From Gibbula magus (lineage: Eukaryota; Mollusca; Gastropoda; Trochida; Trochidae), in NCBI GenBank assembly GCA_936450465.1, contig OW388291.1, positions 32,650,656 through 32,714,655 on the forward strand: a stretch of DNA of 64,000 bases, written 5' to 3'. Each line of letters begins with the position of its first letter. Position 1 is the stretch's first letter. Both the position numbers and the translations under genes were made by a program. Shown here in pieces: positions 35,907 to 64,000 of the stretch. The notes below the pieces were generated by a model. It was not told where the DNA came from and ran no database searches. It saw only the letters and a program-made list of their open reading frames with translations.

Positions 35907-36112
35907 GAAGGGATCCTCCTTGGGGTACATATAGCATAAAAATCCTAATTTTTAACTTGATGACAGATTGTAACTTAATTTTTAAAAATAACAGTAAAAA
36001 TAAGTTAAAAAAACACAAAATAAGTGTTTTCCGAACGTGTGACCACCCTGTGTAGAGCCCCATCCCAGCGCAAACCAAGGGATGTAACTCTAATCTCACC
36101 ACTTATCAATCT
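35907..36112 (+). repeat. DIRS left inverted terminal repeat
   Basis: From GAAGGGATCCTCCTTGGGGT to CACTTATCAATCT. It is the reverse complement of 42201-42406, with one mismatch in an A-run. Outside it, 35896-35906 is the unique left extension used in the ICR. Confidence 0.92.
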
Positions 36113-36654
36113 GTCATTGACCAGACAAGACATGTTTTTGTTTGAGAGACCTTTTGACTTGAGTTTCACAATTTGATGAAAATGGACAAGACTAAGAATA
36201 CTGTATGTGTGGTAACCCCTTTTTATTCGTAGAGGCGAATGTTTAGGTTACTTATATGGTTTTTGTCGCGTTGTAACTTTGTTTTTCAATTCGCACGTGC
36301 TTCGTATGCTTCGAATAATGGCGGATGGAAAACGCTCAAAATGGCGGATCTCAAACAAAATGCAATGTGTTAGTACTTTGCTATTCTTGTATTGAGATTT
36401 GTTTGTTTTGGAGGTTCTTTATCATGCTTCGCATTTTAGGGCAGCACTTTACTGATGAGGATTTCTCCCTTTTTGAATTTTTTCATTCTCGGGGTTATCG
36501 TCTCAGTCGGCAAGATATACTAGGTATATTCATGCTCTATTTCTTTCAGTGGCTTACTATTTATTACTTGCCGAGTGCTTAGTTATTATAGTAGCGCCTC
36601 TGCGTTTGTTTGTATGATGCACTTTTATGAAACATAAACATTGCACTTACACAC
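36113..36654 (+). other. DIRS 5' leader
   Basis: A 542-base stretch between the left ITR and the first ORF. It would carry the promoter and 5' UTR. No TATA box or conserved motif is obvious. Confidence 0.5.
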
Positions 36655-38644: not shown

Positions 38645-38688
38645 GTCCTCCCAAGCCCGAGTCACCACCCAAAATTCCAGCAGCTCGA

Positions 38689-41642: not shown

Positions 41643-42067
41643 CACTCTCTAGCTGATTGAGCTTTCGAGTTATTGTTGAGTTTGGTTCAGTTCAGTTTTC
41701 TAAGAAGACTAATAAACTAACCTTAATTGTTCATCCTAACCAGTTACACTGTTTTGGGCATTTATATCCTCCGCAGCAGGTGTCCCGGTGGCACTGCCTA
41801 GCGGGAAATACTTACTCCTATTGCTCCCCAATAGTCTTTTGTAAAAAAAAGAGGGGGGGGGGGGGGGGGTATTTGGCTCGAATAACGGTAATCAGGCTGG
41901 TTAGCCGATTGGTTAGTCCCCAAGGGATCACCCATCCTCAGCCCTCGGCGCGGGAGGTCACGTGATCTGGTAAGTGTGACACCTTTCTTGGATTGAGTAG
42001 AGCACTTTTAAGGGGTATTTAGTATACAGACAGAATCCACATCCTAAGTCTTCTTTGGGAGTCTGCC
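41643..42067 (+). other. DIRS 3' region before the ICR
   Basis: Non-coding. It contains a run of about 18 G residues around 41850-41869, a likely sequencing-error hotspot, and no recognised signal. Confidence 0.5.
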
Positions 42068-42164
42068 TTATGCTATATGTACCCCAAGGAGGATCCCTTC
42101 TGAAAAAGAATCGAACCAACCTGCAGAGGTTGCAGATTCTTTGAAGGGATCCTCCTTGGGGTAC
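42068..42164 (+). repeat. DIRS internal complementary region (ICR)
   Basis: Bases 42068-42111 are the reverse complement of the left end 35896-35939, and 42111-42164 that of the right end 42385-42438. Read on the minus strand it gives right end then left end (GGTTGGTTCGATTCTTTTTC), the circle junction. In DIRS-1 this region is thought to template completion of the ends. Confidence 0.93.
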
Positions 42165-42200
42165 GGCCACCCACCTCCCCTTATTCTGTCTGACATGGTT

Positions 42201-42406
42201 AGATTGATAAGTGGTGAGATTAGAGTTACATCCCTTGGTTTGCGCTGGGATGGGGCTCTACACAGGGTGGTCACACGTTCGGAAAACACTTATTTTGTGT
42301 TTTTTGAACTTATTTTTACTGTTATTTTTAAAAATTAAGTTACAATCTGTCATCAAGTTAAAAATTAGGATTTTTATGCTATATGTACCCCAAGGAGGAT
42401 CCCTTC
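42201..42406 (+). repeat. DIRS right inverted terminal repeat
   Basis: Starts AGATTGATAAGTGGTGAGAT and ends GGAGGATCCCTTC, inverse to 35907-36112. The unique right extension 42407-42438 (AAAGAATCTGCAACCTCTGC...) follows and is represented in the ICR. Confidence 0.92.
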
Positions 42407-43440: not shown

Positions 43441-44742
43441 TTAGCTCATCAGGCCTGAGAGCCCCGATGGGCTTATGGCATTGGATGGCGTCCGTCCATC
43501 CATCCGTCCGTAAACTTTTCGCTTTTTCATCTTCTTCTCCAGTCCCAATGAACATAGAGAGCTGAATTGTATGTGTAGACTCCTTGACTGAAGGGGATTC
43601 TAAATTGTAGATTTGGTGACCGTGTGACCCCAAATAAGGGCCACAGGGGTCACAACCTAAAAAGCTATTTTCATCTTTTTCTCCAGTCCCAAAAGCTCTA
43701 GAAAGCTGAAATGTTATGTACAGACTCTTTGGCCAATGGGGATTCTAAATTGTAGATTTGGTGACCGTGTGACCCCAAATAAGGGCCACAGGGGTCACAA
43801 CCTAAAAAGCTATTTTCATCTTTTTCTCCAGTCCCAAAAGCTCTAGAAAGCTGAAATGTTATGTACAGACTCTTTGGCCAATGGGGATTCTAAATTGTAG
43901 ATTTGGTGACCTTGTGACCCCAAATATTGATCACAGGGGTCACCGCCTAAAAAACCTGTTTTAATGAGCTGTGAACATAATGAGATTTTATGTGCACTTC
44001 ATATGTCAGCTTAAGAGTAATACTATGTTAAGGACATGTTTGATGTAATCAATGTGAAATTAGAACCATTGAATAGCCTGTGAACTGAATGTTGTGACAA
44101 AATTGAAAAAGGGTTAAGAAATGTTTTATTCTACATTAGATATGTGAACTAAATATGACTGGTGATGAAATAAGATAAGACTATTAGAACTAGCTACATG
44201 AGTTTGTGATACCATATCTTCTTTTCCAGTAAAAGAAAATAAACAAAGATGGTGAAAACAAAATTTAAAATATATAATTCACTGGCTGTGAGTCCAGGGT
44301 CTGCATGTTGTGTAATTGCAGGTGTTAACCTGGGGAGTGACCACTCCCTGGCAGAGATGCAAATAGCAGCTAATACACAGAGGTTTCAGGTTACTACAAA
44401 CATCTCTGCTGTGTTACTGATTTAGTCTTACACTCAGATGCTAATTAAATTATTTAATTATTAATTTATTTATTATTATTGAAAAGGAGCCTTTGAGAAA
44501 CAGGATTTTTATAAACGAATCAGGGCTCTTTTTCATTATGTAATAAATGTTCATAATTCCAGAATAAAAATAAGAAGTAAAACAATAAAATGCAAAGGTC
44601 TACATTATTTATAATGAATGTGGATTAATGTGTAACCAATTTTGAAAGTAACTTTTAAATTTGATGACTTATTATGTGATATCCTTAGCGATAATTAATA
44701 AAATGATTCCTGATGAGCTTCAGAGCCAATGGCTCTTTTTTT
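43441..44742 (+). mobile_element. Helentron-like element, CATCAGG family, single-unit form
   Basis: The head is TTAGCTCATCAGGCCTGAGA, then CCGTCCATCCATCCGTCCGT and three tandem copies of about 140 bp (TCTAAATTGTAGATTTGGTG near 43600, 43745 and 43890). Then comes one diverged copy of the 548-bp-type unit (AATCAATGTGAAATTAGAAC, ATGACTGGTGATGAAATAAG). The tail is CCTGATGAGCT with the hairpin AGAGCC-AAT-GGCTCT and a T-run. It is the 1.3-kb counterpart of the expanded 4.8-kb copy at 11014-15805. Confidence 0.75.
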
Positions 44743-45925: not shown

Positions 45926-46032
45926 TTCCAATGATCTAAAATTAAACTCACTGTTCGTTGTTTTAACTTTAACTTTAACTCTATGAGTGAGTTAATTGTT
46001 GTTCTACATCTCTACTCATTAAGCGTTGTAAG

Positions 46033-46566
46033 ATGAAGCGCCAATCCGAGGTTATTTACACCAGTAGCAGTCCCTTCAGCATACGGTTTAAGCGGAAACC
46101 TAACTTTGACTTTACATGCAAACTGCCCCTGGTGGATTATTCATTCAGCGATGATGAGGACAACACTACAGAGCAAGAAGTTGAGAGTTCTTTGAATACT
46201 TTGCGATCTAGTCTTGCACAACTCGGCAGCCCCATGCCTCCTATGAAAAGGCGAAATCATGTGAAACATAATTGCATACAAGATACTTTGAGCAGAGATG
46301 TGGGGAAGCGCCTTTCTCTTAAATTAAAAGAGGAGCAGAAAGCTGAAAGATTAAGAAAACACCAACTTATCTCACAGGTGACGGGAGAGATTCTCTCATC
46401 AATGCACGTGTGTGAAGCAGAAGCTCCAAGGAAGAAACAACGATTGGATTTCACTTTATTTACTAAACGTGTTTCTCTTGGCAGAGGGCACAAAAACAAA
46501 GGCTTAAGTTCCTACAGTAGAAAGAGGAAGACAACATTCTCGGATAAAATATTCGGCCAAAAGTAG
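46033..46566 (+). CDS. Array gene copy 1 (177 aa), edge copy without promoter
   Basis: The product is like the standard 179-residue protein, except that a 6-bp deletion removes Leu-Phe near the C-terminus (FGQK for FGLFQK). Diverged residues include Glu-Ser-Ser for Glu-Thr-Ser at 51-53, Ile for Thr 82 and Arg-Leu for Thr-Leu at 106-107. Upstream, sequence resembling the end of a unit (ACTGTTCGTTGTTTTAACTT) runs almost directly into the 5' UTR second exon (GAGTGAGTTAATTG) at about 45990. The promoter, first exon and intron present in other units are therefore missing. Whether it is expressed is doubtful. Confidence 0.7.
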   Translation: MKRQSEVIYTSSSPFSIRFKRKPNFDFTCKLPLVDYSFSDDEDNTTEQEVESSLNTLRSSLAQLGSPMPPMKRRNHVKHNCIQDTLSRDVGKRLSLKLKEEQKAERLRKHQLISQVTGEILSSMHVCEAEAPRKKQRLDFTLFTKRVSLGRGHKNKGLSSYSRKRKTTFSDKIFGQK

Positions 46567-47534
46567 AGTGTTACCAAATCACTCTTAAGTACTGTGCTAC
46601 TTCAGGGACAAGTTAATTGCAAAATGTTGTTTAAGATTTTGACATTCATTGTTTATATATTTTGTTATACGTTTAATCATGTAATATGTTACTGAAAGTG
46701 CTGAATAAAATAAACTAAAAATGAAATTCACTCTTCGTTTTTTTAACTTATATCTATACAGGATGAATCTGATCTGTCAAGACGTTTGAAATGGTTTGTA
46801 TATGAACAATGTAGGGAGTCTGGTTAACAACAAGTCACATTATTTGGTGACATGGTTTCAAGTGTCACAAAAGTAGCAGACAGTTAGGAGAGGCTATGTG
46901 CAAAATACCACATAGCTTTAATGCTGAGTTCACTGATGACATTTTGTTCAACGTCGGCATAAAATTTGCAATGCAAGATGAGCTGTTGAAGATGTTAAAA
47001 CAGTAGCCGTGCAAGTTGTTAAGAGAGGCACGTTAAGAAAGTGTCAATCAGTCACAGTGAATACACAATCAATTAGTCATGATATATTGTCTTCCTCAAA
47101 AGAAACTCTCTTTTCGTGATTGCATCAATGTTATGAAATAAATACACAAATATTGACGGACGCCGACCATGACCAAAGCAGTGCTTTGCTAATTGACTCT
47201 TGGCTACTTCATCAACAGCTTGTAATCTGCAAGCCTTTTATTTGGTCATTGTTGAATGTTTAGATAACGGAGACGAATGTCTGGGCTGCTTGTGAAAGCA
47301 GACACACTCGATTGGTGACAATCGTATATTTTGTAAATAACACTGTGAACACAAGCGGACGTCATCCCTTTAAAAGCAGCAACACCAGCCAACATTGGCA
47401 TCAAATTCAATCTGATCTATCAATGACTCAGTAAGTGTGTGTTCGCCTGGAATATTGAAAGATTAACTTTATATTTTCCAGTGCCTGAGTGAGTTAATTG
47501 TTGTACTACATCTCTACTCATTGAGCATTGTAAG

Positions 47535-48073
47535 ATAAGCGCCAATCCGAGGTTATTTACACCAGTAGCAGTCCCTTCAGCATACGGTTTAAGCGGAAAC
47601 CTAACTTTGACTTTACATGCAAACTGCCCCTGGTGGATTATTCATTCAGCGATGATGAGGACAACACTACAGAGCAAGAAGTAGAGACTTCTTTGAATAA
47701 TTTGCGATCAAGTCTTGCACAACTCGGCAGCCCCATGCCTCCTATGAAAAGGCGAAATCATGTGAAACATAATTGCACACAAGATACTTTGAGCAGAGAT
47801 GTGGGGAAGCGCCTTTCTCTTAAATTAAAAGATGAGCAGAAAGCTGAAACACTCAGAAAACACCAACTTATCTCACAGGTAGCGGGAGATATTCTCTCAT
47901 CAATGCACGTGTGTGAAGCCGAAGCTCCAAGGAAGAAACAACGATTGGATTTCACTTTATTTACAAAACGTGTTTCTCTTGACAGAGGGCACAAAAACAA
48001 AGGCTTAAGCTCTTACAGTAGAAAGAGGAAAACAACATTCTCGGATAAAATATTCGGCCTTTTTCAAAAGTAG
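47535..48073 (+). pseudogene. Array gene copy 2, start codon lost
   Basis: One G is missing from the start (AAGATAAGCGCC for AAGATGAAGCGCC), removing the ATG. The frame after it is otherwise open to TAG at 48071-48073, with several residue changes (Asn for Thr 56, Asp for Glu 101, Ala for Thr 117, Asp for Gly 150). The next in-frame ATG is at Met68, so a full-length product is unlikely. The promoter block and the 51-bp intron (47431-47481) are retained. Confidence 0.8.
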
Positions 48074-49035
48074 AGTTTTACCAAATAACACTCAACTACT
48101 GTGCTACTTCGTTAATTGCAAAATGTTGTTTAAGATTATGACATTCATTGTTTTATATATTTTGTTGTACATTTAATCATGTATTCTGTTACTGAAAGTG
48201 CTGAATGAAATAAACGAGAAATAAAATTCACTGTTCGTTGTTTTAACTTACATCTATACATGAGGAATCTGATCTGACAAGACGTTTGAAATGGTTTTTA
48301 TATGAACAATATAGGTAGTCTGATTGACAACTGGTCACATTATTTGGTGACATGGTTTCAAGTGTCACAAAAGTAGGAAAGAGTTAAGAGAGGTTTTGTG
48401 CAAAATACCACATAGCTTTAATGCTGAGTTCACTGATGACATTTTGTTCAACGTCGGCATGAAATTTGCAATGCAAGATGAGCTGTTGAAGATGTTAAAA
48501 CAGTAGCCGTGCATGTTGTTAAGAGAGGCACGTTAAGAAAGTGTCAATCAGTCACAGTGAATACACAATCAATTAGTCAGGATATATTGTCTTCCTCAAA
48601 AGAAACTTTTCTTTTCGTGATTGCATCAATGTTATGAAATAAATATACAAATATTGACGGACGCCGACCATGACCAAAGCAGTGCTTTGCTAATTGACTC
48701 TTGGCTACTTCATCAACGGCTTGTAATCTGCAAGCCTTTTATTTGGTCATTTTTGAATGTTTAGATAACGGAGACGAATGTCTGGGCTGCTTGTGAAAGC
48801 AGACACACTCGATTGGTGACAATCGTATATTTTGTAAATAATACTGTGTACACAAGCGGACGTCATCCCTTTAAAAGCAGCAACACCAGCCAACATCGGC
48901 ATCAAATTCAATCTGATCTATCAATGACTCAGTAAGTGTGTGTTCGCCTGGAATATTGAAAGATTAACTTTATATTTTCCAGCGCCTGAGTGAGTTAATT
49001 GTTGTTCTACATCTCTACTCATTGAGCGTTGTAAG

Positions 49036-49575
49036 ATGAAGCGCCAATCCGAGGTTATTTACACCAGTAGCAGTCCCTTCAGCATACGGTTTAAGCGGAA
49101 ACCTAACTTTGACTTTACATGCAAACTGCCCCTGGTGGATTATTCATTCAGCGATGATGAGGACAACACTACAGAGCAAGAAGTTGAGACTTCTTTGAAT
49201 AGTTTGCGATTTAGTCTTGCACAACTCGGCAGCCCCATGCCTCCTATGAAAAGGCGAAATCATGTGAAACATAATTGCACACAAGATACTTTAAGCAGAG
49301 ATGTGGGGAAGCGCATTTCTCTTAATTTAAAAGAGGAGCAGAAAGCTGAAACACTCAGAAAACACCAACTTATCTCACAGGTGACGGGAGATATTCTCTC
49401 ATCAATGCACGTGTGTGAAGCAGAAGCTCCAAGGAAGAAACAGCGATTGGATTTCACTTTATTTACAAAACGTGTTTCTCTTGGCAGAGGGCACAAACAC
49501 AAAGGCTTAAGCTCTTACAGTAGAAAGAGGAAGACAACATTCTCGGATAAAATATTCGGCCTTTTTCAAAAGTAA
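49036..49575 (+). CDS. Array gene copy 3, intact (179 aa)
   Basis: Unrecognised basic protein. Seen in the standard form: an N-terminal MKRQSEVIYTSSSPFSIRFK; an acidic patch at residues 39-51 (SDDEDNTTEQEVE); SP sites at 13-14 and 66-67; basic clusters KRR (72-74), RKKQR (133-137) and RKRK (163-166) that could act as nuclear localisation signals; a Lys/Glu-rich probable helix around 92-112; and a C-terminus TTFSDKIFGLFQK. Two cysteines at most beyond Cys29, no signal peptide, no membrane segment, no zinc-finger spacing. A nuclear protein is inferred; no function can be named. This copy has Ser56, Phe59 and Asn97 variants. Confidence 0.8.
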   Translation: MKRQSEVIYTSSSPFSIRFKRKPNFDFTCKLPLVDYSFSDDEDNTTEQEVETSLNSLRFSLAQLGSPMPPMKRRNHVKHNCTQDTLSRDVGKRISLNLKEEQKAETLRKHQLISQVTGDILSSMHVCEAEAPRKKQRLDFTLFTKRVSLGRGHKHKGLSSYSRKRKTTFSDKIFGLFQK

Positions 49576-50544
49576 AGTTTTACCAAATCACTCTCAACTA
49601 CTGTGCTACTTCAGGGACAAGTTAATTGCAAAATGTTGTTTAAGATTTTGACATTCATTGTTTATATATTTTGTTGTACGTTTAATCATGTATTGTGTTA
49701 CTGAAAGTGCTGAATAAAATAAACTAGAAATGGAATTCACTCTTCGTTGTTTTAACTTATATCTATACAGGATGAATCTGATCTGACAAGACGTTTGAAA
49801 TGGTTTTTATATGAACAATGTAGGGAGTCTGATTAACATCTGGTCACATTATTTGGTGACATGGTTTCAAGTGTCACAAAAGTAGCAAACAGTTAAGAGA
49901 TGCTTTCTGCAAAATACCACATAGCTTTAATGCTGAGTTCACTGATGACATTTTGTTCAACGTCGGCATGAAATTTGCAATGCAAGATGAGCTGTTGAAG
50001 ATGTTAAAACAGTAGCCGTGCATGTTGTTAAGAGAGGCACGTTAAGAAAGTGTCAATCAGTCACAGTGAATACACAATCAATTAGTCAGGATATATTGTC
50101 TTCCTCAAAAGAAACTTTTCTTTTCGTGATTGCATCAATGTTATGAAATAAATATACAAATATTGACGGACGCCGACCATGACCAAAGCAGTGCTTTGCT
50201 AATTGACTCTTGGCTACTTCATCAACGGCTTGTAATCTGCAAGCCTTTTATTTGGTCATTGTTGAATGTTTAGATAACGGAGACGAATGTCTGGGCTGCT
50301 TGTGAAAGCAGACACACTCGATTGGTGACAATCGTATATTTTGTAAATAACACTGTGTACACAAGCGGACGTCATCCCTTTAAAAGCAGCAACACCAGCC
50401 AACATCGGCATCAAATTCAATCTGATCTATCAATGACTCAGTAAGTGTGTGTTCGCCTGGAATATTGAAAGATTAACTTTATATTTTCCAGCGCCTGAGT
50501 GAGTTAATTGTTGTTCTACATCTCTACTCATTGAGCATTGAAAG

Positions 50545-51084
50545 ATGAAGCGCCAATCCGAGGTTATTTACACCAGTAGCAGTCCCTTCAGCATACGGTT
50601 TAAGCGGAAACCTAACTTTGACTTTACATGCAAACTGCCCCTGGTGGATTATTCATTCAGCGATGATGAGGACAACACTACAGAGCAAGAAGTTGAGACT
50701 TCTTTGAATACTTTGCGATCTAGTCTTGCACAACTCGGCAGCCCCATGCCTCCTATGAAAAGGCGAAATCATGTGAAACATAATTGCACACAAGATACTT
50801 TGAGCAGAGATGTGAGGAAGCGCATTTATCTTAAATTAAAAGAGGAGCAGAAAGCTGAAACACTCAGAAAACACCAACTTATCTCACAGGTGACGGGAGA
50901 TATTCTCTCATCAATGCACGTGTGTGAAGCAGAAGCTCCAAGGAAGAAACAGCGATTGGATTTCACTTTATTTACAAAACGTGTTTCTCTTGGCAGAGGG
51001 CACAAAAACAAAGGCTTAAGCTCTTACAGTAGAAAGAGGAAGACAACATTCTCGGATAAAATATTCGGCCTTTTTCAAAAGTAG
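50545..51084 (+). CDS. Array gene copy 4, intact (179 aa)
   Basis: Full length with Arg for Gly91 and Tyr for Ser95. The 5' UTR reads GCATTGAAAGATG, a small variant shared with copy 6. A displaced partial unit follows directly in its 3' UTR. Confidence 0.8.
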   Translation: MKRQSEVIYTSSSPFSIRFKRKPNFDFTCKLPLVDYSFSDDEDNTTEQEVETSLNTLRSSLAQLGSPMPPMKRRNHVKHNCTQDTLSRDVRKRIYLKLKEEQKAETLRKHQLISQVTGDILSSMHVCEAEAPRKKQRLDFTLFTKRVSLGRGHKNKGLSSYSRKRKTTFSDKIFGLFQK

Positions 51085-51188
51085 AGTTTTACCAAATCAC
51101 TCTCAACTACTGTGCTACTTCAGGGACAAGTTAATTGCAAAATGTTGTTTAAGATTTTGACATTCATTGTTTATATATTTTGTTGTAC

Positions 51189-51503
51189 GTTGTGAAACAT
51201 AATTGCACACAAGATACTTTGAGCAGAGATGTGGGGAAGCGTCTTTCTCTTAAATTAAAAGAGGAGCAGAAAGTTGAAACACTCAGAAAACACCAACTTA
51301 TCTCACAGGTGACGGGAGATATTCTCTCATCAATGCACGTGTGTGAAGCAGAAGCTCCCAGGAAGAAACAACGATTTGATTTCACATTATTTACAAAACG
51401 TGTTTCTTTTTGCAGAGGGCACAAACACAAAGGCTTAAGCTCTTACAGTAGAAAGAGGAAGACAACATTCTCGGATAAAATATTCGGCCTTTTTCAAAAG
51501 TAG
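51189..51503 (+). pseudogene. Array gene copy 4b, 5'-truncated duplicate
   Basis: The 3' UTR of copy 4 (TTGTTGTACGT) switches directly to codon 77-78 of another copy (TGTGAAACATAATTGC) and then runs to the normal stop and polyA signal. The insertion adds 423 bp. It lacks residues 1-76 and a promoter. Residue changes include Val for Ala104, Phe for Leu138 and Phe-Cys for Leu-Gly at 149-150. Confidence 0.88.
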
Positions 51504-52476
51504 AGTTTTACCAAATCACTCTCAACTACTGTGCTACTTCAGGGACAAGTTAATTGCAAAATGTTGTTTAAGATTTTGACATTCATTGTTTATATATTTT
51601 GTTGTACGTTTAATCATGTATTGTGTTACTGAAAGTGCTGAATAAAATAAACTAGAAATGGAATTCACTCTTCGTTGTTTTAACTTATATCTATACAGGA
51701 TGAATCTGATCTGACAAGACGTTTGAAATGGTTTTTATATGAACAATGTAGGGAGTCTGATTAACATCTGGTCACATTATTTGGTGACTTGGTTTCAAGT
51801 GTCACAAAAGTAGCAAACAGTTAAGAGATGCTTTCTGCAAAATACCACATAGCTTTAATGCTGAGTTCACTGATGACATTTTGTTCAACGTCGGCATGAA
51901 ATTTGCAATGCAAGATGAGCTGTTGAAGATGTTAAAACAGACAGTAGCCGTGCATGTTGTTAAGAGAGGCACGTTAAGAAAGTGTCAATCAGTCACAGTG
52001 AATACACAATCAATTAGTCAGGATATATTGTCTTCCTCAAAAGAAACTTTTCTTTTCGTGATTGCATCAATGTTATGAAATAAATATACAAATATTGACG
52101 GACGCCGACCATGACCAAAGCAGTGCTTTGCTAATTGACTCTTGGCTACTTCATCAACGGCTTGTAATCTGCAAGCCTTTTATTTGGTCATTGTTGAATG
52201 TTTAGATAACGGAGACGAATGTCTGGGCTGCTTGTGAAAGCAGACACACTCGATTGGTGACAATCGTATATTTTGTAAATAACACTGTGTACACAAGCGG
52301 ACGTCATCCCTTTAAAAGCAGCAACACCAGCCAACATCGGCATCAAATTCAATCTGATCTATCAATGACTCAGTAAGTGTGTGTTCGCCTGGAATATTGA
52401 AAGATTAACTTTATATTTTCCAGCGCCTGAGTGAGTTAATTGTTGTTCTACATCTCTACTCATTGAGCGTTGTAAG

Positions 52477-53016
52477 ATGAAGCGCCAATCCGAGGTTATT
52501 TACACCAGTAGCAGTCCCTTCAGCATACGGTTTAAGCGGAAACCTAACTTTGACTTTACATGCAAACTGCCCCTGGTGGATTATTCATTCAGCGATGATG
52601 AGGACAACACTACAGAGCAAGAAGTTGAGACTTCTTTGAATACTTTGCGATCTAGTCTTGCACAACTCGGCAGCCCCATGCCTCCTATGAAAAGGCGAAA
52701 TCATGTGAAACATAATTGCACACAAGATACTTTGTGCAGAGATGTGGGGAAGCGCATTTCTCTTAAATTAAAAGAGGAGCAGAAAGTTGAAACACTCAGA
52801 AAACACCAACTTATCTCACAGGTGACGGGAGATATTCTCTCATCAATGCACGTGTGTGAAGCAGAAGCTCCAAGGAAGAAACAGCGATTGGATTTCACTT
52901 TATTTACAAAACGTGTTACTCTTGGCAGAGGGCACAAAAACAAAGGCTTAAGCTCTTACAGTAGAAAGAGGAAGACAACATTCTCGGATAAAATATTCGG
53001 CCTTTTTCAAAAGTAG
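52477..53016 (+). CDS. Array gene copy 5, intact (179 aa)
   Basis: Full-length frame. Cys replaces Ser87 (also in copy 6), Val replaces Ala104 (also in copy 4b) and Thr replaces Ser148. The Val104 variant shared with the adjacent truncated copy suggests that the crossover that made copy 4b involved this lineage. Confidence 0.8.
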   Translation: MKRQSEVIYTSSSPFSIRFKRKPNFDFTCKLPLVDYSFSDDEDNTTEQEVETSLNTLRSSLAQLGSPMPPMKRRNHVKHNCTQDTLCRDVGKRISLKLKEEQKVETLRKHQLISQVTGDILSSMHVCEAEAPRKKQRLDFTLFTKRVTLGRGHKNKGLSSYSRKRKTTFSDKIFGLFQK

Positions 53017-53985
53017 AGTTTTACCAAATCACTCTCAACTACTGTGCTACTTCAGGGACAAGTTAATTGCAAAATGTTGTTTAAGATTTTGACATTCATT
53101 GTTTATATATTTTGTTGTACGTTTAATCATGTATTGTGTTACTGAAAGTGCTGAATAAAATAAACTAGAAATGGAATTCACTCTTCGTTGTTTTAACTTA
53201 TATCTATACAGGATGAATCTGATCTGACAAGACGTTTGAAATGGTTTTTATATGAACAATGTAGGGAGTCTGATTAACATCTGGTCATATTATTTGGTGA
53301 CATGGTTTCAAGTGTCACAAAAGTAGCAAACAGTTAAGAGATTCTATTTGCAAAATACCACATAGCTTTAATGCTGAGTTCACTGATGACATTTTGTTCA
53401 ACGTCGGCATGAAATTTGCAATGCAAGATGAGCTGTTGAAGACGTTAAAACAGTAGCCGTGCATGTTGTTAAGAGAGGCACGTTAAGAAAGTGTCAATCA
53501 GTCACAGTGAATACACAATCAATTAGTCAGGATATATTGTCTTCCTCAAAAGAAACTTTTCTTTTCGTGATTGCATCAATGTTATGAAATAAATATACAA
53601 ATATTGACGGACGCCGACCATGACCAAAGCAGTGCTTTGCTAATTGACTCTTGGCTACTTCATCAACGGCTTGTAATCTGCAAGCCTTTTATTTGGTCAT
53701 TGTTGAATGTTTAGATAACGGAGACGAATGTCTTGGCTGCTTGTGAAAGCAGACACACTCGATTGGTGACAATCGTATATTTTGTAAATAACACTGTGTA
53801 CACAAGCGGACGTCATCCCTTTAAAAGCAGCAACACCAGCCAACATCGGCATCAAATTCAATCTGATCTATCAATGACTCAGTAAGTGTGTGTTCGCCTG
53901 GAATATTGAAAGATTAACTTTATATTTTCCAGCGCCTGAGTGAGTTAATTGTTGTTCTACATCTCTACTCATTGAGCATTGAAAG

Positions 53986-54525
53986 ATGAAGCGCCAATCC
54001 GAGGTTATTTACACCAGTAGCAGTCCCTTCAGCATACGGTTTAAGCGGAAACCTAACTTTGACTTTACATGCAAACTGCCCCTAGTGGATTATTCATTCA
54101 GCGATGATGAGGACAACACTACAGAGCAAGAAGTTGAGACTTCTTTGAATACTTTGCGATCTAGTCTTGCACAACTCGGCAGCCCCATGCCTCCTATGAA
54201 AAGGCGAAATCATGTGAAACATAATTGCACACAAGATACTTTGTGCAGAGATGTGAGGAAGCGCATTTCTCTTAAATTAAAAGAGGAGCAGAAAGCTGAA
54301 ACACTCAGAAAACACCAACTTATCTCACAGGTGACGGGAGATATTCTCTCATCAATGCACGTGTGTGAAGCAGAAGCTCCAAGGAAGAAACAGCGATTGG
54401 ATTTCACTTTATTTACAAAACGTGTTTCTCTTGGCAGAGGGCACAAAAACAAAGGCTTAAGCTCTTACAGTAGAAAGAGGAAGACAACATTCTCGGATAA
54501 AATATTCGGCCTTTTTCAAAAGTAG
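53986..54525 (+). CDS. Array gene copy 6, intact (179 aa)
   Basis: Full-length frame combining Cys87 of copy 5 with Arg91 and the AAAGATG leader variant of copy 4, a mosaic typical of conversion between repeats. Confidence 0.8.
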   Translation: MKRQSEVIYTSSSPFSIRFKRKPNFDFTCKLPLVDYSFSDDEDNTTEQEVETSLNTLRSSLAQLGSPMPPMKRRNHVKHNCTQDTLCRDVRKRISLKLKEEQKAETLRKHQLISQVTGDILSSMHVCEAEAPRKKQRLDFTLFTKRVSLGRGHKNKGLSSYSRKRKTTFSDKIFGLFQK

Positions 54526-55494
54526 AGTTTTACCAAATCACTCTCAACTACTGTGCTACTTCAGGGACAAGTTAATTGCAAAATGTTGTTTAAGATTTTG
54601 ACATTCATTGTTTATATATTTTGTTGTACGTTTAATCATGTATTGTGTTACTGAAAGTGCTGAATAAAATAAACTAGAAATGGAATTCACTCTTCGTTGT
54701 TTTAACTTATATCTATACAGGATGAATCTGATCTGACAAGACGTTTGAAATGGTTTTTATATGAACAATGTAGGGAGTCTGATTAACATCTGGTCACATT
54801 ATTTGGTGACATGGTTTCAAGTGTCACAAAGGTAGCAAACAGTTAAGAGATGATTTGTGCAAAATACCACATAGCTTTAATGCTGAGTTCACTGATGACA
54901 TTTTGTTCAACGTCGGCATGAAATTTGCAATGCAAGATGAGCTGTTGAAGATGTTAAAACAGTAGCCGTGCATGTTGTTAAGAGAGGCACGTTAAGAAAG
55001 TGTCAATCAGTCACAGTGAATACACAATCAATTAGTCAGGATATATTGTCTTCCTCAAAAGAAACTTTTCTTTTCGTGATTGCATCAATGTTATGAAATA
55101 AATATACAAATATTGACGGACGCCGACCATGACCAAAGCAGTGCTTTGCTAATTGACTCTTGGCTACTTCATCAACGGCTTGTAATCTGCAAGCCTTTTA
55201 TTTGGTCATTGTTGAATGTTTAGATAACGGAGACGAATGTCTGGGCTGCTTGTGAAAGCAGACACACTCGATAGGTGACAATCGTATATTTTGTAAATAA
55301 CACTGTGTACACAAGCGGACGTCATCCCTTTAAAAGCAGCAACACCAGCCAACATCGGCATCAAATTCAATCTGATCTATCAATGACTCAGTAAGTGTGT
55401 GTTCGCCTGGAATATTGAAAGATTAACTTTATATTTTCCAGCGCCTGAGTGAGTTAATTGTTGTTCTACATCTCTACTCATTGAGCGTTGTAAG

Positions 55495-56036
55495 ATGAAG
55501 CGCCAATCCGAGGTTATTTACACCAGTAGCAGTCCCTTCAGCATACGGTTTAAGCGGAAACCTAACTTTGACTTTACATGCAAACTGCCCCTGGTGGATT
55601 ATTCATTCAGCAATGATGAGGACAACACTACAGAGCAAGAAGTTGAGACTTCTTTGAATACTTTGCGATCTAGTCTTGCACAACTCGGCAGCCCCATGCC
55701 TCCTATGAAAAGGCGAAATCATGTGAAACATAATTGCACACAAGATACTTTGAGCAGAGATGTGGGGAAGCGCATTTCTCTTAAATTAAAAGAGGAGCAG
55801 AAAGCTGAAACACTCAGAAAACACCAACTTATCTCACAGGTGACGGGAGATATTCTCTCATCAATGCACGTGTGTGAAGCAGAAGCTCCAAGGAAGAAAC
55901 AGCGATTGGATTTCACTTTATTTACAAAACGTGTTTCTCTTGGCAGAGGGCACAAACACAAAGGCTTATATAAGCTCTTACAGTAGAAAGAGGAAGACAA
56001 CATTCTCGGATAAAATATTCGGCCTTTTTCAAAAGT
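55495..56036 (+). pseudogene. Array gene copy 7, 4-bp insertion frameshift
   Basis: TATA is inserted near 55970 (GGCTTATATAAGCTC for GGCTTAAGCTC), shifting the frame after residue 157 and stopping at 55984-55986. The product would have 163 residues without the RKRK cluster and the conserved C-terminus. Asn replaces Asp40 in the acidic patch. The original stop position is about 56034-56036. Confidence 0.85.
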
Positions 56037-57007
56037 AGAGTTTTACCAAATCACTCTCAACTACTGTGCTACTTCAGGGACAAGTTAATTGCAAAATGTT
56101 GTTTAAGATTTTGACATTCATTGTTTATATATTTTGTTGTACGTTTAATCATGTATTGTGTTACTGAAAGTGCTGAATAAAATAAACTAGAAATGGAATT
56201 CACTCTTCGTTGTTTTAACTTATATCTATACAGGATGAATCTGATCTGACAAGACGTTTGAAATGGTTTTTATATGAACAATGTAGGGAGTCTGATTAAC
56301 GTCTGGTCACATTATTTGGTGACATGGTTTCAAGCGTCACAAAAGTAGCAAACAGTTAAGAGATGCTTTCTGCAAAATACCACATAGCTTTAATGCTGAG
56401 TTCACTGATGACATTTTGTTCAACGTCGGCATGAAATTTGCAATGCAAGATGAGCTGTTGAAGATGTTAAAACAGTAGCCGTGCATGTTGTTAAGAGAGG
56501 CACGTTAAGAAAGTGTCAATCAGTCACAGTGAATACACAATCAATTAGTCAGGATATATTGTCTTCCTCAAAAGAAACTTTTCTTTTCGTGATTGCATCA
56601 ATGTTATGAAATAAATATACAAATATTGACGGACGCCGCCCATGACCAAAGCAGTGCTTTGCTAATTGACTCTTGGCTACTTCATCAACGGCTTGTAATC
56701 TGCAAGCCTTTTATTTGGTCATTGTTGAATGTTTAGATAACGGAGACGAATGTCTGGGCTGCTTGTGAAAGCAGACACACTCGATTGGTGACAATCGTAT
56801 ATTTTGTAAATAACACTGTGTACACAAGCGGACGTCATCCCTTTAAAAGCAGCAACACCAGCCAACATCGGCATCAAATTCAATCTGATCTATCAATGAC
56901 TCAGTAAGTGTGTGTTCGCCTGGAATATTGAAAGATTAACTTTATATTTTCCAGCGCCTGAGTGAGTTAATTGTTGTTCTACATCTCTACTCATTGAGCG
57001 TTGTAAG

Positions 57008-57547
57008 ATGAAGCGCCAATCCGAGGTTATTTACACCAGTAGCAGTCCCTTCAGCATACGGTTTAAGCGGAAACCTAACTTTGACTTTACATGCAAACTG
57101 CCCCTGGTGGATTATTCATTCAGCGATGATGAGGACAACACTACAGAGCAAGAAGTTGAGACTTCTTTGAATACTTTGCGATCTAGTCTTGCACAACTCG
57201 GCAGCCCCATGCCTCCTATGAAAAGGCGAAATCATGTGAAACATAATTGCACACAAGATACTTTGAGCAGAGATGTGGGGAAGCGCATTTCTCTTAAATT
57301 AAAAGAGGAGCAGAAAGCTGAAACACTCAGAAAACACCAACTTATCTCACAGGTGACGGGAGATATTCTCTCATCAATGCACGTGTGTGAAGCAGAAGCT
57401 CCAAGGAAGAAACAGCGATTGGATTTCACTTTATTTACAAAACATGTTTCTCTTTGCAGAGGGCACAAACACAAAGGCTTAAGCTCTAACAGCAGAAAGA
57501 GGAAGACAACATTCTCGGATAAAATATTCGGCCTTTTTCAAAAGTAG
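57008..57547 (+). CDS. Array gene copy 8, intact (179 aa)
   Basis: Full-length. Differences from the standard form are His for Arg146, Cys for Gly150 and Asn for Tyr161. All basic clusters remain. Confidence 0.8.
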   Translation: MKRQSEVIYTSSSPFSIRFKRKPNFDFTCKLPLVDYSFSDDEDNTTEQEVETSLNTLRSSLAQLGSPMPPMKRRNHVKHNCTQDTLSRDVGKRISLKLKEEQKAETLRKHQLISQVTGDILSSMHVCEAEAPRKKQRLDFTLFTKHVSLCRGHKHKGLSSNSRKRKTTFSDKIFGLFQK

Positions 57548-58516
57548 AGTTTTACCAAATCACTCTCAACTACTGTGCTACTTCAGGGACAAGTTAATTG
57601 CAAAATGTTGTTTAAGATTTTGACATTCATTGTTTATATATTTTGTTGTACGTTTAATCATGTATTGTGTTACTGAAAGTGCTGAATAAAATAAACTAGA
57701 AATGGAATTCACTCTTCGTTGTTTTAACTTATATCTATACAGGATGAATCTGATCTGACAAGACGTTTGAAATGGTTTTTATATGAACAATGTAGGGAGT
57801 CTGATTAACATCTGGTCACATTATTTGGTGACATGGTTTCAAGCGTCACAAAAGTAGCAAACAGTTAAGAGATGCTTTCTGCAAAATACCACATAGCTTT
57901 AATGCTGAGTTCACTGATGACATTTTGTTCAACGTCGGCATGAAATTTGCAATGCAAGATGAGCTGTTGAAGATGTTAAAACAGTAGCCGTGCATGTTGT
58001 TAAGAGAGGCACGTTAAGAAAGTGTCAATCAGTCACAGTGAATACACAATCAATTAGTCAGGATATATTGTCTTCCTCAAAAGAAACTTTTCTTTTCGTG
58101 ATTGCATCAATGTTATGAAATAAATATACAAATATTGACGGACGCCGACCATGACCAAAGCAGTGCTTTGCTAATTGACTCTTGGCTACTTCATCAACGG
58201 CTTGTAATCTGCAAGCCTTTTATTTGGTCATTGTTGAATGTTTAGATAACGGAGACGAATGTCTGGGCTGCTTGTGAAAGCAGACACACTCGATTGGTGA
58301 CAATCGTATATTTTGTAAATAACACTGTGTACACAAGCGGACGTCATCCCTTTAAAAGCAGCAACACCAGCCAACATCGGCATCAAATTCAATCTGATCT
58401 ATCAATGACTCAGTAAGTGTGTGTTCGCCTGGAATATTGAAAGATTAACTTTATATTTTCCAGCGCCTGAGTGAGTTAATTGTTGTTCTACATCTCTACT
58501 CATTGAGCGTTGTAAG

Positions 58517-59044
58517 ATGAAGCGCCAATCCGAGGTTATTTACACCAGTAGCAGTCCCTTCAGCATACGGTTTAAGCGGAAACCTAACTTTGACTTTACA
58601 TGCAAACTGCCCCTGGTGGATTATTCATTCAGCGATGATGAGGACAACACTACAGAGCAAGAAGTTTAGACTTCTTTGAATACTTTGCGATCTAGTCTTG
58701 CACAACTCGGCAGCCCCATGCCTCCTATGAAAAGGCGAAATCATGTGAAACAAGATACTTTGAGCAGAGATGTGGGGAAGCGCATTTCTCTTAAATTAAA
58801 AGAGGAGCAGAAAGCTGAAACACTCAGAAAACACCAACTTATCTCACAGGTGACGGGAGATATTCTCTCATCAATGCACGTGTGTGAAGCAGAAGCTCCA
58901 AGGAAGAAACAGCGATTGGATTTCACTTTATTTACAAAACGTGTTTCTCTTGGCAGAGGGCACAAACACAAAGGCTTAAGCTCTTACAGTAGAAAGAGGA
59001 AGACAACATTCTCGGATAAAATATTCGGCCTTTTTCAAAAGTAG
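58517..59044 (+). pseudogene. Array gene copy 9, nonsense at codon 51 and 12-bp deletion
   Basis: GAAGTTGAG is changed to GAAGTTTAG, giving TAG at 58667-58669 in place of Glu51. A 12-bp in-frame deletion also removes His-Asn-Cys-Thr at 79-82. Re-initiation at Met68 could give a fragment, but that is speculative. Downstream sequence is otherwise standard. Confidence 0.88.
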
Positions 59045-60013
59045 AGTTTTACCAAATCACTCTCAACTACTGTGCTACTTCAGGGACAAGTTAATTGCAA
59101 AATGTTGTTTAAGATTTTGACATTCATTGTTTATATATTTTGTTGTACGTTTAATCATGTATTGTGTTACTGAAAGTGCTGAATAAAATAAACTAGAAAT
59201 GGAATTCACTCTTCGTTGTTTTAACTTATATCTATACAGGATGAATCTGATCTGACAAGACGTTTGAAATGGTTTTTATATGAACAATGTAGGGAGTCTG
59301 ATTAACATCTGGTCATATTATTTGGTGACATGGTTTCAAGCGTCACAAAAGTAGCAAACAGTTAAGAGATGCTATTTGCAAAATACCACATAGCTTTAAT
59401 GCTGAGTTCACTGATGACATTTTGTTCAACGTCGGCATGAAATTTGCAATGCAAGATGAGCTGTTGAAGATGTTAAAACAGTAGCCGTGCATGTTGTTAA
59501 GAGAGGCACGTTAAGAAAGTGTCAATCAGTCACAGTGAATACACAATCAATTAGTCAGGATATATTGTCTTCCTCAAAAGAAACTTTTCTTTTCGTGATT
59601 GCATCAATGTTATGAAATAAATATACAAATATTGACGGACGCCGACCATGACCAAAGCAGTGCTTTGCTAATTGACTCTTGGCTACTTCATCAACGGCTT
59701 GTAATCTGCAAGCCTTTTATTTGGTCATTGTTGAATGTTAAGATAACGGAGACGAATGTCTGGGCTGCTTGTGAAAGCAGACACACTCGATTGGTGACAA
59801 TCGTATATTTTGTAAATAACACTGTGTACACAAGCGGACGTCATCCCTTTAAAAGCAGCAACACCAGCCAACATCGGCATCAAATTCAATCTGATCTATC
59901 AATGACTCAGTAAGTGTGTGTTCGCCTGGAATATTGAAAGATTAACTTTATATTTTCCAGCGCCTGAGTGAGTTAATTGTTGTTCTACATCTCTACTCAT
60001 TGAGCGTTGTAAG

Positions 60014-60553
60014 ATGAAGCGCCAATCCGAGGTTATTTACACCAGTAGCAGTCCCTTCAGCATACGGTTTAAGCGGAAACCTAACTTTGACTTTACATGC
60101 AAACTGCCCCTGGTGGATTATTCATTCAGCGATGATGAGGACAACACTACAGAGCAAGAAGTTTAGACTTCTTTGAATACTTTGCGATCTAGTCTTGCAC
60201 AACTCGGCAGCCCCATGCCTCCTATGAAAAGGCGAAATCATGTGAAACATAATTGCACACAAGATACTTTGAGCAGAGATGTGGGGAAGCGCATTTCTCT
60301 TAAATTAAAAGAGGAGCAGAAAGCTGAAACACTCAGAAAACACCAACTTATCTCACAGGTGACGGGAGATATTCTCTCATCAATGCACGTGTGTGAAGCA
60401 GAAGCTCCAAGGAAGAAACAGCGATTGGATTTCACTTTATTTACAAAACGTGTTTCTCTTGGCAGAGGGCACAAACACAAAGGCTTAAGCTCTTACAGCA
60501 GAAAGAGGAAGACAACATTCTCGGATAAAATATTCGGCCTTTTTCAAAAGTAG
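60014..60553 (+). pseudogene. Array gene copy 10, nonsense at codon 51
   Basis: The same Glu51-to-TAG change as copy 9 (60164-60166) without its 12-bp deletion. The rest of the frame is intact to the normal stop. The shared lesion in neighbouring copies points to duplication or conversion after the mutation. Confidence 0.88.
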
Positions 60554-61521
60554 AGTTTTACCAAATCACTCTCAACTACTGTGCTACTTCAGGGACAAGT
60601 TAATTGCAAAATGTTGTTTAAGATTTTGACATTCATTGTTTATATATTTTGTTGTACGTTTAATCATGTATTGTGTTACTGAAAGTGCTGAATAAAATAA
60701 ACTAGAAATGGAATTCACTCTTCGTTGTTTTAACTTATATCAATACAGGATGAATCTGATCTGACAAGACGTTTGAAATGGTTTTTATATGAACAATGTA
60801 GGGAGTCTGATTAACATCTGGTCACATTATTTGGGGACATGGTTTCAAGCGTCACAAAAGTAGCAAACAGTTAAGAGATGCTTTCTGCAAAATACCACAT
60901 AGCTTTAATGCTGAGTTCACTGATGACATTTTGTTCAACGTCGGCATGAAATTTGCAATGCAAGATGAGCTGTTGAAGATGTTAAAACAGTAGCCGTGCA
61001 TGTTGTTAAGAGAGGCACGTTAAGAAAGTGTCAATCAGTCACAGTGAATACACAATCAATTAGTCAGGATATATTGTCTTCCTCAAAAGAAACTTTTCTT
61101 TTCGTGATTGCATCAATGTTATGAAATAAATATACAAATATTGACGGACGCCGACCATGACCAAAGCAGTGCTTTGCTAATTGACTCTTGGCTACTTCAT
61201 CAACGGCTTGTAATCTGCAAGCCTTTTTTTGGTCATTGTTGAATGTTTAGATAACGGAGACGAATGTCTGGGCTGCTTGTGAAAGCAGACACACTCGATT
61301 GGTGACAATCGTATATTTTGTAAATAACACTGTGTACACAAGCGGACGTCATCCCTTTAAAAGCAGCAACACCAGCCAACATCGGCATCAAATTCAATCT
61401 GATCTATCAATGACTCAGTAAGTGTGTGTTCGCCTGGAATATTGAAAGATTAACTTTATATTTTCCAGCGCCTGAGTGAGTTAATTGTTGTTCTACATCT
61501 CTACTCATTGAGCGTTGTAAG

Positions 61522-62061
61522 ATGAAGCGCCAATCCGAGGTTATTTACACCAGTAGCAGTCCCTTCAGCATACGGTTTAAGCGGAAACCTAACTTTGACT
61601 TTACATGCAAACTGCCCCTGGTGGATTATTCATTCAGCGATGATGAGGACAACACTACAGAGCAAGAAGTTGAGACTTCTTTGAATACTTTGCGATCTAG
61701 TCTTGCACAACTCGGCAGCCCCATGCCTCCTATGAAAAGGCGAAATCATGTGAAACATAATTGCACACAAGATACTTTGAGCAGAGATGTGGGGAAGCGC
61801 ATTTCTCTTAAATTAAAAGAGGAGCAGAAAGCTGAAACACTCAGAAAACACCAACTTATCTCACAGGTGACGGGAGATATTCTCTCATCAATGCACGTGT
61901 GTGAAGCAGAAGCTCCAAGGAAGAAACAGCGATTGGATTTCACTTTATTTACAAAACGTGTTTCTCTTGGCAGAGGGCACAAACACAAAGGCTTAAGCTC
62001 TTACAGTAGAAAGAGGAAGACAACATTCTCGGATAAAATATTCGGCCTTTTTCAAAAGTAG
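61522..62061 (+). CDS. Array gene copy 11, intact (179 aa), standard form
   Basis: Matches the commonest sequence at every residue I compared. The unit is complete, with promoter-like block, 5' UTR intron (about 61419-61469), ORF and AATAAA at 62199-62204. It is a good reference copy for the family. Confidence 0.82.
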   Translation: MKRQSEVIYTSSSPFSIRFKRKPNFDFTCKLPLVDYSFSDDEDNTTEQEVETSLNTLRSSLAQLGSPMPPMKRRNHVKHNCTQDTLSRDVGKRISLKLKEEQKAETLRKHQLISQVTGDILSSMHVCEAEAPRKKQRLDFTLFTKRVSLGRGHKHKGLSSYSRKRKTTFSDKIFGLFQK

Positions 62062-62198
62062 AGTTTTACCAAATCACTCTCAACTACTGTGCTACTTCAG
62101 GGACAAGTTAATTGCAAAATGTTGTTTAAGATTTTGACATTCATTGTTTATATATTTTGTTGTACGTTTAATCATGTATTGTGTTACTGAAAGTGCTG

Positions 62199-62204
62199 AA
62201 TAAA
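62199..62204 (+). terminator. Polyadenylation signal of the array gene (example from copy 11)
   Basis: AATAAA in GCTGAATAAAATAAACTAG, 138 bases after the stop and followed by a T/GT-rich stretch (CTTCGTTGTTTTAAC). It is present in every unit, in each case between the ORF and the spacer. Confidence 0.7.
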
Positions 62205-62806
62205 ATAAACTAGAAATGGAATTCACTCTTCGTTGTTTTAACTTATATCTATACAGGATGAATCTGATCTGACAAGACGTTTGAAATGGTTTTTATATGA
62301 ACAATGTAGGGAGTCTGATTAACATCTGGTCACATTATTTGGTGACATGGTTTCAAGTGTCACAAAAGTAGCAAACAGTTAAGAGATGCTTTCTGCAAAA
62401 TACCACATAGCTTTAATGCTGAGTTCACTGATGACATTTTGTTCAACGTCGGCATGAAATTTGCAATGCAAGATGAGCTGTTGAAGATGTTAAAACAGTA
62501 GCCGTGCATGTTGTTAAGAGAGGCACGTTAAGAAAGTGTCAATCAGTCACAGTGAATACACAATCAATTAGTCAGGATATATTGTCTTCCTCAAAAGAAA
62601 CTTTTCTTTTCGTGATTGCATCAATGTTATGAAATAAATATACAAATATTGACGGACGCCGACCATGACCAAAGCAGTGCTTTGCTAATTGACTCTTGGC
62701 TACTTCATCAACGGCTTGTAATCTGCAAGCCTTTTATTTGGTCATTGTTGAATGTTAAGATAACGGAGACGAATGTCTGGGCTGCTTGTGAAAGCAGACA
62801 CACTCG

Positions 62807-62926
62807 ATTGGTGACAATCGTATATTTTGTAAATAACACTGTGTACACAAGCGGACGTCATCCCTTTAAAAGCAGCAACACCAGCCAACATCGGCATCAA
62901 ATTCAATCTGATCTATCAATGACTCA
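62807..62926 (+). promoter_or_regulatory. Array unit promoter (example from copy 12)
   Basis: In order: ATTGG (inverted CCAAT box, 62807-62811) inside the small palindrome CGATTG-GTGA-CAATCG; GGACGTCA (CRE-like, 7 of 8 bases, 62853-62860); TTTAAAAG (TATA-like, 62865-62872); and TGACTCA (exact AP-1 site, 62920-62926) just before the splice donor. The spacing fits a polymerase II start near 62895-62900. The same motifs recur in each standard unit and are missing before copy 1. Confidence 0.55.
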
Positions 62927-62977
62927 GTAAGTGTGTGTTCGCCTGGAATATTGAAAGATTAACTTTATATTTTCCAG
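62927..62977 (+). other. 51-bp intron in the 5' UTR of the array gene (example from copy 12)
   Basis: Donor CTCA|GTAAGTGTG and acceptor TATATTTTCCAG|CGCC, with a branch-like GATTAAC 20-25 bases before the AG. The same sequence lies upstream of every standard copy (for example 47431-47481). The second exon gives a 53-base leader before ATG. It is unusually short for this genome, where MAN2A introns are hundreds of bases or more. Confidence 0.55.
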
Positions 62978-63030
62978 CGCCTGAGTGAGTTAATTGTTGT
63001 TCTACATCTCTACTCATTGAGCGTTGTAAG

Positions 63031-63570
63031 ATGAAGCGCCAATCCGAGGTTATATACACCAGTAGCAGTCCCTTCAGCATACGGTTTAAGCGGAAACCTA
63101 ACTTTGACTTTACATGCAAACTGCCCCTGGTGGATTATTCATTCAGCGATGATGAGGACAACACTACAGAGCAAGAAGTTGAGACTTCTTTGAATACTTT
63201 GCGATCTAGTCTTGCACAACTCGGCAGCCCCATGCCTCCTATGAAAAGGCGAAATCATGTGAAACATAATTGCACACAAGATACTTTGAGCAGAGATGTG
63301 GGAAAGCGCATTTCTCTTAAATTAAAAGAGGAGCAGAAAGCTGAAACACTCAGAAAACACCAACTTATCTCACAGGTGACGGGAGATATTCTCTCATCAA
63401 TGCACGTGTGTGAAGCAGAAGCTCCAAGGAAGAAACAGCGATTGGATTTCACTTTATTTACAAAACGTGTTTCTCTTGGCAGAGGGCACAAACACAAAGG
63501 CTTAAGCTCTTACAGTAGAAAGAGGAAGACAACATTCTCGGATAAAATATTCGGCCTTTTTCAAAAGTAG
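63031..63570 (+). CDS. Array gene copy 12, intact (179 aa)
   Basis: Encodes the same protein as copy 11; I noticed only silent changes (TATATACACC for TATTTACACC, GGAAAG for GGGAAG). The next unit's spacer continues to the window end, so further copies are expected. Confidence 0.82.
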   Translation: MKRQSEVIYTSSSPFSIRFKRKPNFDFTCKLPLVDYSFSDDEDNTTEQEVETSLNTLRSSLAQLGSPMPPMKRRNHVKHNCTQDTLSRDVGKRISLKLKEEQKAETLRKHQLISQVTGDILSSMHVCEAEAPRKKQRLDFTLFTKRVSLGRGHKHKGLSSYSRKRKTTFSDKIFGLFQK

Positions 63571-64000
63571 AGTTTTACCAAATCACTCTCAACTACTGTG
63601 CTACTTCAGGGACAAGTTAATTGCAAAATGTTGTTTAAGATTTTGACATTCATTGTTTATATATTTTGTTGTACGTTTAATCATGTATTGTGTTACTGAA
63701 AGTGCTGAATAAAATAAACTAGAAATGGAATTCACTCTTCGTTGTTTTAACTTATATCTATACAGGATGAATCTGATCTGACAAGACGTTTGAAATGGTT
63801 TTTATATGAACAATGTAGGGAGTCTGATTAACATCTGGTCATATTATTTGGTGACATGGTTTCAAGCGTCACAAAAGTAGCAAACAGTTAAGAGATGCTA
63901 TTTGCAAAATACCACATAGCTTTAATGCTGAGTTCACTGATGACATTTTGTTCAACGTCGGCATGAAATTTGCAATGCAAGATGAGCTGTTGAAGATGTT

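Follow-up and report, generated by a model that had tools for sequence, protein, structure and literature searches.

The DNA analysed here, a 64,000-nucleotide stretch of Gibbula magus contig OW388291.1 (the window), ends in a tandem array of a small protein-coding gene. The gene looks like a real one and not a junk repeat: an orphan with conserved relatives, repeated in an array that is young or is being actively homogenised.

The array and its repeated unit

One unit (62531-63970) was compared with the whole window by blastn, which located 12 gene copies, all on the + strand, from 45,984 to the window end, and one additional partial piece inside unit 4. The period is ∼1509 bp, and start-to-start distances from unit 2 (u02) to unit 11 (u11) are 1497-1513 bp, with the exception of unit 4 (1932 bp), whose excess size is due to an internal tandem duplication of 419 bp (50772-51610). 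The sizes of u02 to u12 are 1500, 1509, 1932, 1509, 1509, 1513, 1509, 1497, 1509, 1508 and 1470 bp, the last unit being cut by the window end; the first, u01, is also shorter. Since the array continues past the window end, 12 copies is a lower bound. When the six members of the protein family described below were searched against the window by tblastn (E ≤ 1), none of the 81 matches lay before 45,900 and none was on the - strand, so that no other copy was found in the first 45.9 kb and no inverted copy in the window. The array and its parts are as follows.

45939-64000, + strand: whole array in the window, from blastn self-comparison and comparison of the left edge; continues beyond 64000
45939-45969, + strand: left edge, probable 3'-flank remnant of a lost preceding unit, apparently joined to the u01 leader
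45963-47035, + strand: unit 1, promoter missing; open reading frame (ORF) 46033-46566
47036-48535, + strand: unit 2, diverged edge copy; frame remnant 47535-48073
48536-50044, + strand: unit 3, intact ORF 49036-49575
50045-51976, + strand: unit 4, intact ORF 50545-51084; carries the duplication
51977-53485, + strand: unit 5, intact ORF 52477-53016
53486-54994, + strand: unit 6, intact ORF 53986-54525
54995-56507, + strand: unit 7, ORF 55495-55986, frame shifted near its end
56508-58016, + strand: unit 8, intact ORF 57008-57547
58017-59513, + strand: unit 9, stop at codon 51; 12-bp deletion
59514-61022, + strand: unit 10, stop at codon 51, same as unit 9
61023-62530, + strand: unit 11, intact ORF 61522-62061; coding sequence equal to the core consensus
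62531-64000, + strand: unit 12, truncated at the window end; intact ORF 63031-63570

An earlier note on this DNA had described a tandem, single-orientation array of ∼1.5 kb units, which these results bear out. Its twelve full-size units are better counted as twelve copies, comprising 11 promoter-bearing units and u01, which lacks both promoter and upstream spacer, and the start that it placed at 45930 is measured at ∼45,939. Homogenisation, also claimed, is strong in the core (u03-u12, mutual identity 98.9-99.7%) and weaker at the edge, where u02 is 96.6-97.1% identical to the core units and u01 95.7% over 989 alignable bases, nonhomologous upstream bases being left out. Divergence is highest at the edge, as unequal exchange predicts. 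At the left edge, 31 bp (45,939-45,969) resemble the 3' flank of the unit, with 93.5% identity to u02 positions 1184-1214, and the match to the u01 leader starts at ∼45,963, within a TTAACTT-rich stretch that also holds these 31 bp. At this junction, u01 may have lost its spacer and promoter through a deletion between two units.

The anatomy of the unit is given for unit 12, with conservation taken from a comparison of the blocks across the 12 units.

62806-62873, + strand: core-promoter-like block
62806-62820, + strand: inverted CCAAT; block identical in 10 of 12 units
62853-62864, + strand: ACGTCA, cAMP-response-element (CRE)-like site; block unchanged across u02-u12 (11/12 units)
62863-62873, + strand: TATA-like CCTTTAAAAGC; block unchanged across u02-u12 (11/12 units)
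62927-62977, + strand: probable 51-nt 5'-leader intron, donor GTAAGT, branch-like TTAAC, acceptor TTTTCCAG
63031-63570, + strand: 179-codon ORF (ATG 63031, stop 63568-63570), the query for the family searches
63707-63719, + strand: poly(A) signal region GAATAAAATAAAC, AATAAA at ∼63708; identical in 11 of 12 units

The donor and branch/acceptor blocks of the intron are likewise identical in all units but u01, and the poly(A) block of u02 has a one-base change. The functions of the promoter motifs are putative, and the TATA block would place the transcription start of unit 12 at about 62,895. Judged by these signals, every complete unit looks like one RNA polymerase II (Pol II) gene, with TATA element, probable leader intron, ORF and AATAAA, and is probably transcribed, in agreement with the full-looking transcription unit noted earlier. 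A short upstream ORF (ATG ACT CAG TAA, 62919-62930), in a block identical in 11 of 12 units, spans the putative intron donor, so that splicing would alter it; the overlapping TGACTCA is AP-1-like. An embedded non-coding RNA gene (5S, snRNA or another small RNA array) was considered and set aside, as Rfam gave no match at gathering scores across the window and none at E ≤ 1 in unit 11. A second gene in the spacer was also rejected: apart from the gene itself, no ATG ORF of unit 11 is longer than 51 residues, a length reached on the - strand.

The ORF is homologous in 12/12 units and full-length (179 residues) in the seven units with intact frames listed above, which confirms by coordinates the number reported earlier. 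In the remainder, the u01 frame has 177 residues, two short near the C-terminus; u02 has lost its start codon; a 4-bp insertion in u07 leaves 163 residues; and u09 and u10 share their stop codon, u09 having its deletion in addition.

The protein family

A phmmer search of 5.77 billion proteins gave four relatives of the 179-residue protein, and a profile built from these gave a fifth among the 7995 best candidates scored; a third search added none to these five. Identities to the window protein are 76, 58, 56, 43 and 50% for the five, P0001 to P0005, each covering 100% of the query, and none of the five carries a domain annotation. Family members have 175-188 residues. Pattern searches of viral_contigs and genome_contigs gave 11 and 72 matches, respectively, none confirmed as a relative.

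The alignment of the six sequences has 52 invariant columns, against 179 positions in the window protein. Conserved motifs are MKRxSE..YT, LV[DE]YSF[ST]DD, LAQLGSPxP, R.SL.L..E..AE..R....IS, HVC.AEAPxK...LD and S..I.....K. S66-P67 is invariant and an acidic [ST]DD[ED] patch is common to the members, while a PKA-like KRxSL is absent in P0005. A full-length frame and motifs that are kept down to 43% identity are hardly those of a neutral ORF. On this comparison, the protein family is conserved and is not a fossil ORF, the case which the earlier note had named as its refutation.

The 24-residue N-terminal extension of P0001 aligns by back-translation to the 5' leader of the window unit with a score of 9, whereas 500 shuffles scored -6 or less, the gap-free plain match covering the last 13 residues only. 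The P0001 contig thus appears to hold leader sequence. The longest contigs carrying P0001 to P0005 are 1531, 1772, 1815, 1478 and 2209 bp, and the closeness of 1531 bp to the 1509-bp unit weakly hints that a second source, too, has an array.

The window protein is basic (isoelectric point 9.97; 35 K/R versus 20 D/E). A block AP.K[KR][RQ][RK]LD, present in 6/6 members, resembles a monopartite nuclear localisation signal (NLS) of the c-Myc type, and the protein may therefore be nuclear. A cyclin-docking RxL motif at this basic block has matches in P0002, P0003 and P0005 (3/6 members); it was set aside for the window protein, where it is unmatched and where the same residues fit the NLS found in all six. 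AlphaFold2 gave a mean predicted local distance difference test score (pLDDT) of 56.9 and a predicted template-modelling score (pTM) of 0.19 from what is, at six sequences, a shallow alignment, with helices at 46-63, 90-124 and 169-178. The simplest reading of the model is a disordered protein with induced helices.

As the earlier note had supposed, the protein belongs to no known family that we could find: searches of Pfam, NCBIfam, PHROGs, PDB and Rfam yielded nothing credible, and Foldseek likewise names no function (2 matches, best E 4.0, from a model too poor to weigh). Several weak matches were rejected as chance, namely Pfam CHD1-like_C (E 0.091), DUF481 (0.027) and DUF7813 (0.14) and NCBIfam BssR (0.14), each in one of six members, and PDB Vps27 (E 0.1 by sequence, 0.044 by profile), which matched an acidic and helical stretch. 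Small nuclear regulators such as IER and CDI (p21/p27) were considered as leads; no Pfam domain of this kind matched the six members at E ≤ 10, in a search where HMMER filters drop most weak matches. Literature searches with short family peptides and a satellite DNA string found no paper, and no description of the gene was met in the literature searched, mostly at the level of titles and abstract openings.

Divergence between the copies, and the flanking sequence

Substitutions between the edge copies and the core consensus suggest constraint on the protein. The ratio of nonsynonymous to synonymous divergence (dN/dS) is 0.37 for u01 (dS 0.045, dN 0.017; 5 synonymous and 7 nonsynonymous changes), 0.27 for u02 (dS 0.053, dN 0.014; 6 and 6) and 0.27 for u01 against u02 (dS 0.081, dN 0.022; 9 and 9), values that rest on few changes (12, 12 and 18). 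Together with the five conserved relatives, they uphold the suggestion of selection on the protein. Unit u02 departs from the core at 12 of its 539 coding sites and at 31 of 921 non-coding ones. Counted over all copies, synonymous changes number 16 and nonsynonymous changes 23, and there is one stop change. The synonymous share of the non-stop changes (16/39) lies above the ∼25% expected; the p value is 0.006 at kappa 1, 0.023 at kappa 2 and 0.063 at kappa 4, or, leaving out a stop-to-stop change (15/38), 0.012, 0.039 and 0.095, respectively.

The core copies also appear to exchange sequence. The four-gamete test is violated by 16 of 55 pairs of informative sites in the core; codons 87 and 91 in u04, u05 and u06 are an instance. 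Conversion or exchange is a likelier cause than recurrent mutation, which is possible. A core of nearly identical copies, a diverged edge and these four-gamete failures are together what concerted evolution within an array produces.

We favour, with a probability of roughly 0.6, the reading that this is a gene-bearing macrosatellite, encoding a lineage-restricted, mostly disordered, probably nuclear basic protein and amplified head to tail for dosage. The units are longer than 1 kb, head to tail and in one orientation, with the gene in most or every one of them. The reading draws on the five full-length homologues, the lower dN/dS of the edge copies, the promoter and splice-site blocks kept in 11/12 units, the four-gamete failures, the P0001 leader match and the alpha-mannosidase II-like exons upstream. 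In this scheme, a lineage-restricted gene would have been amplified as a unit that includes TATA promoter, leader intron and poly(A) site, so that copy number would set gene dosage; dosage is the likeliest, though unproven, reason for the array. Unequal exchange and gene conversion would keep the copies alike, with broken copies riding along. The product would be a small adaptor whose induced helices (about 46-63, 90-124 and 169-178) bind its partners, and it may be controlled by a proline-directed kinase at the invariant S66-P67 and by CK2 at the acidic patch.

Several observations weigh against this reading. The mean pairwise dN/dS among u03-u12 is 0.82, near neutral, and variable columns in the core (20/540 coding, 21/930 non-coding) give no sign of coding constraint. 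The synonymous excess reaches only the p values given above for kappa 4, or for kappa 2 and 4 when the stop-to-stop change is left out. Nonsynonymous changes show no clear avoidance of family-invariant positions, 4 of 23 hitting such positions (D40, S95, A104 and R146) where 52 of 179 are invariant. Of the 12 copies, five have a broken frame or no promoter, the structure model is of low quality, and nuclear location and kinase sites are both based on short motifs. The data thus indicate constraint over longer times and near neutrality among recent copies. The earlier note had offered selection and very recent amplification as alternatives, and both apply, at different depths.

Upstream of the array lie exons, on the + strand, that resemble alpha-mannosidase II. 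They match Pfam Glyco_hydro_38N (E 0.0053) and Pfam Alpha-mann_mid (E 6.4e-07), though neither match reaches the curated cut-off. They are spread over ∼24 kb with repeats between them.

4008-4331 and 5405-5728, + strand: probable alpha-mannosidase II (GH38) exons, weak Pfam matches
26499-26777 and 28044-28376, + strand: probable alpha-mannosidase II (GH38) exons, mainly by eye

For 28044-28376, alpha-mannosidase II chains in PDB matched at E ∼0.5, behind an unrelated receptor at 0.33. Between this gene and the array is a DIRS-like retroelement (35907-42406) with 206-bp inverted ends that are 100% complementary and a GC-rich body with Pfam RVT_1 in 38689-40758; an overlapping frame (38484-41642) has by eye a tyrosine-recombinase-like end and no Pfam match at E ≤ 0.1. 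An element whose 223-bp inverted ends are 94-95% complementary occurs twice in tandem at 18453-24510, the copies lying 3041 bp apart; both have an identical 232-residue frame on the - strand, which in the first copy has no Pfam match at E ≤ 10. A satellite at 11045-15465 has a base unit of 145 bp and, at a higher order, a period of ∼549 bp, with six stretches 97-100% alike, and related 145-bp copies recur 28 kb away at 43462-43960.

Known systems and other explanations

Replication-dependent histone arrays are tandem arrays of compact Pol II genes for basic proteins, and the window array is like them in these respects; it differs in that its unit has an AATAAA poly(A) signal and a probable leader intron, and the family has no histone match in Pfam or by sequence in PDB. 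The earlier note held the arrangement to be rare outside histone, ribosomal DNA, 5S or Stellate-type arrays. The human genome does not bear this out: 20 large tandem repeats there have a gene in all or most of their units, among them CT47 (11 precise copies) and DUB3 (9 copies) (PMC2588610). The human arrays (CT47, GAGE, TSPY and DUB3) share with the window array homogenised head-to-tail units, a gene per unit and copy number as dosage. The window unit is shorter, at 1.5 kb against 2.5 kb for GAGE, 4.8 kb for CT47 and 20.3 kb for TSPY (PMC2588610), and its protein is unrelated to any family tested. Stellate and Suppressor of Stellate of Drosophila are, like the window array, tandem repeats of a small-protein gene, and with Slx/Sly they indicate that conflict can also build gene arrays (PMC10618873). 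The window protein differs from Stellate in being conserved across sources and in having no CK2-beta match; the Pfam matches of the six members at E ≤ 10 (three families, E 0.027-0.14, one member each) include no CK2 subunit. By its structure, as read from the DNA, the array fits the human gene-bearing group, and by its protein it fails the definition of Stellate.

The strongest competitor, possible though doubtful, is that a conserved gene was caught in a recent expansion by unequal crossing-over, so that its copies would be mostly redundant and near neutral and their dosage not selected. The ∼1% differences in the core, with the dN/dS there and no deficit of coding changes, are as such an expansion would leave them, as are the five defective copies and the duplication in unit 4. 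Seven intact frames and the identity of the CRE-like, TATA and splice-site blocks in 11/12 units speak against it, although recency at 1% divergence predicts the same, and the length of the P0001 contig is a further slight point for a maintained array.

It is rather unlikely that the array itself is conserved, with several lineages depending, as they do for histones, on a tandem array to supply a regulatory or chromatin protein at obligatory high dosage; such an array would probably answer a brief bulk demand, as in oogenesis, early cleavage or sperm chromatin. Relatives on contigs no longer than 1.5-2.2 kb, the closest near the unit length, are as expected from short-read assembly of arrays, a weak hint given that low-coverage contigs are short anyway.

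A selfish or drive-type multicopy gene, as in Stellate/Su(Ste) or Slx/Sly, brought to high copy number by an arms race and met by suppression of the PIWI-interacting RNA type, is improbable, and nothing observed in the window points to drive. A tandem, homogenised, orphan nuclear-like protein gene with several broken copies resembles the systems in that review (PMC10618873), but within the window no copy is inverted, the protein is conserved across sources and not fast-diverging, and the upstream flank resembles an ordinary gene. Satellite DNA with a fossil ORF that is no longer a gene would account for the broken and promoterless copies and is very improbable given five homologues with full-length frames. 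Equally hard to credit is an assembly artefact, one gene assembled many times, which near-identical units at a window end might suggest, since each of the 10 core units has its own substitution or gap (a substitution in 8/10; a 12-bp deletion in u09 and a 1-bp deletion in u11), u03-u12 have 42 variable sites, 31 with a singleton, the duplication occurs in one unit only, and divergence is higher at the edge.

The arrangement is thus of a known kind, and the protein family is not described in the sources searched. Short, homogenised tandem arrays of protein-coding genes are, to our knowledge, few. An orphan gene that is conserved and kept in such an array would offer a clean test between dosage selection, neutral unequal exchange and conflict, and the strongly conserved short motifs of this small family, such as LAQLGSPxP and HVCxAEAPxK, are candidates for localisation and partner screens.

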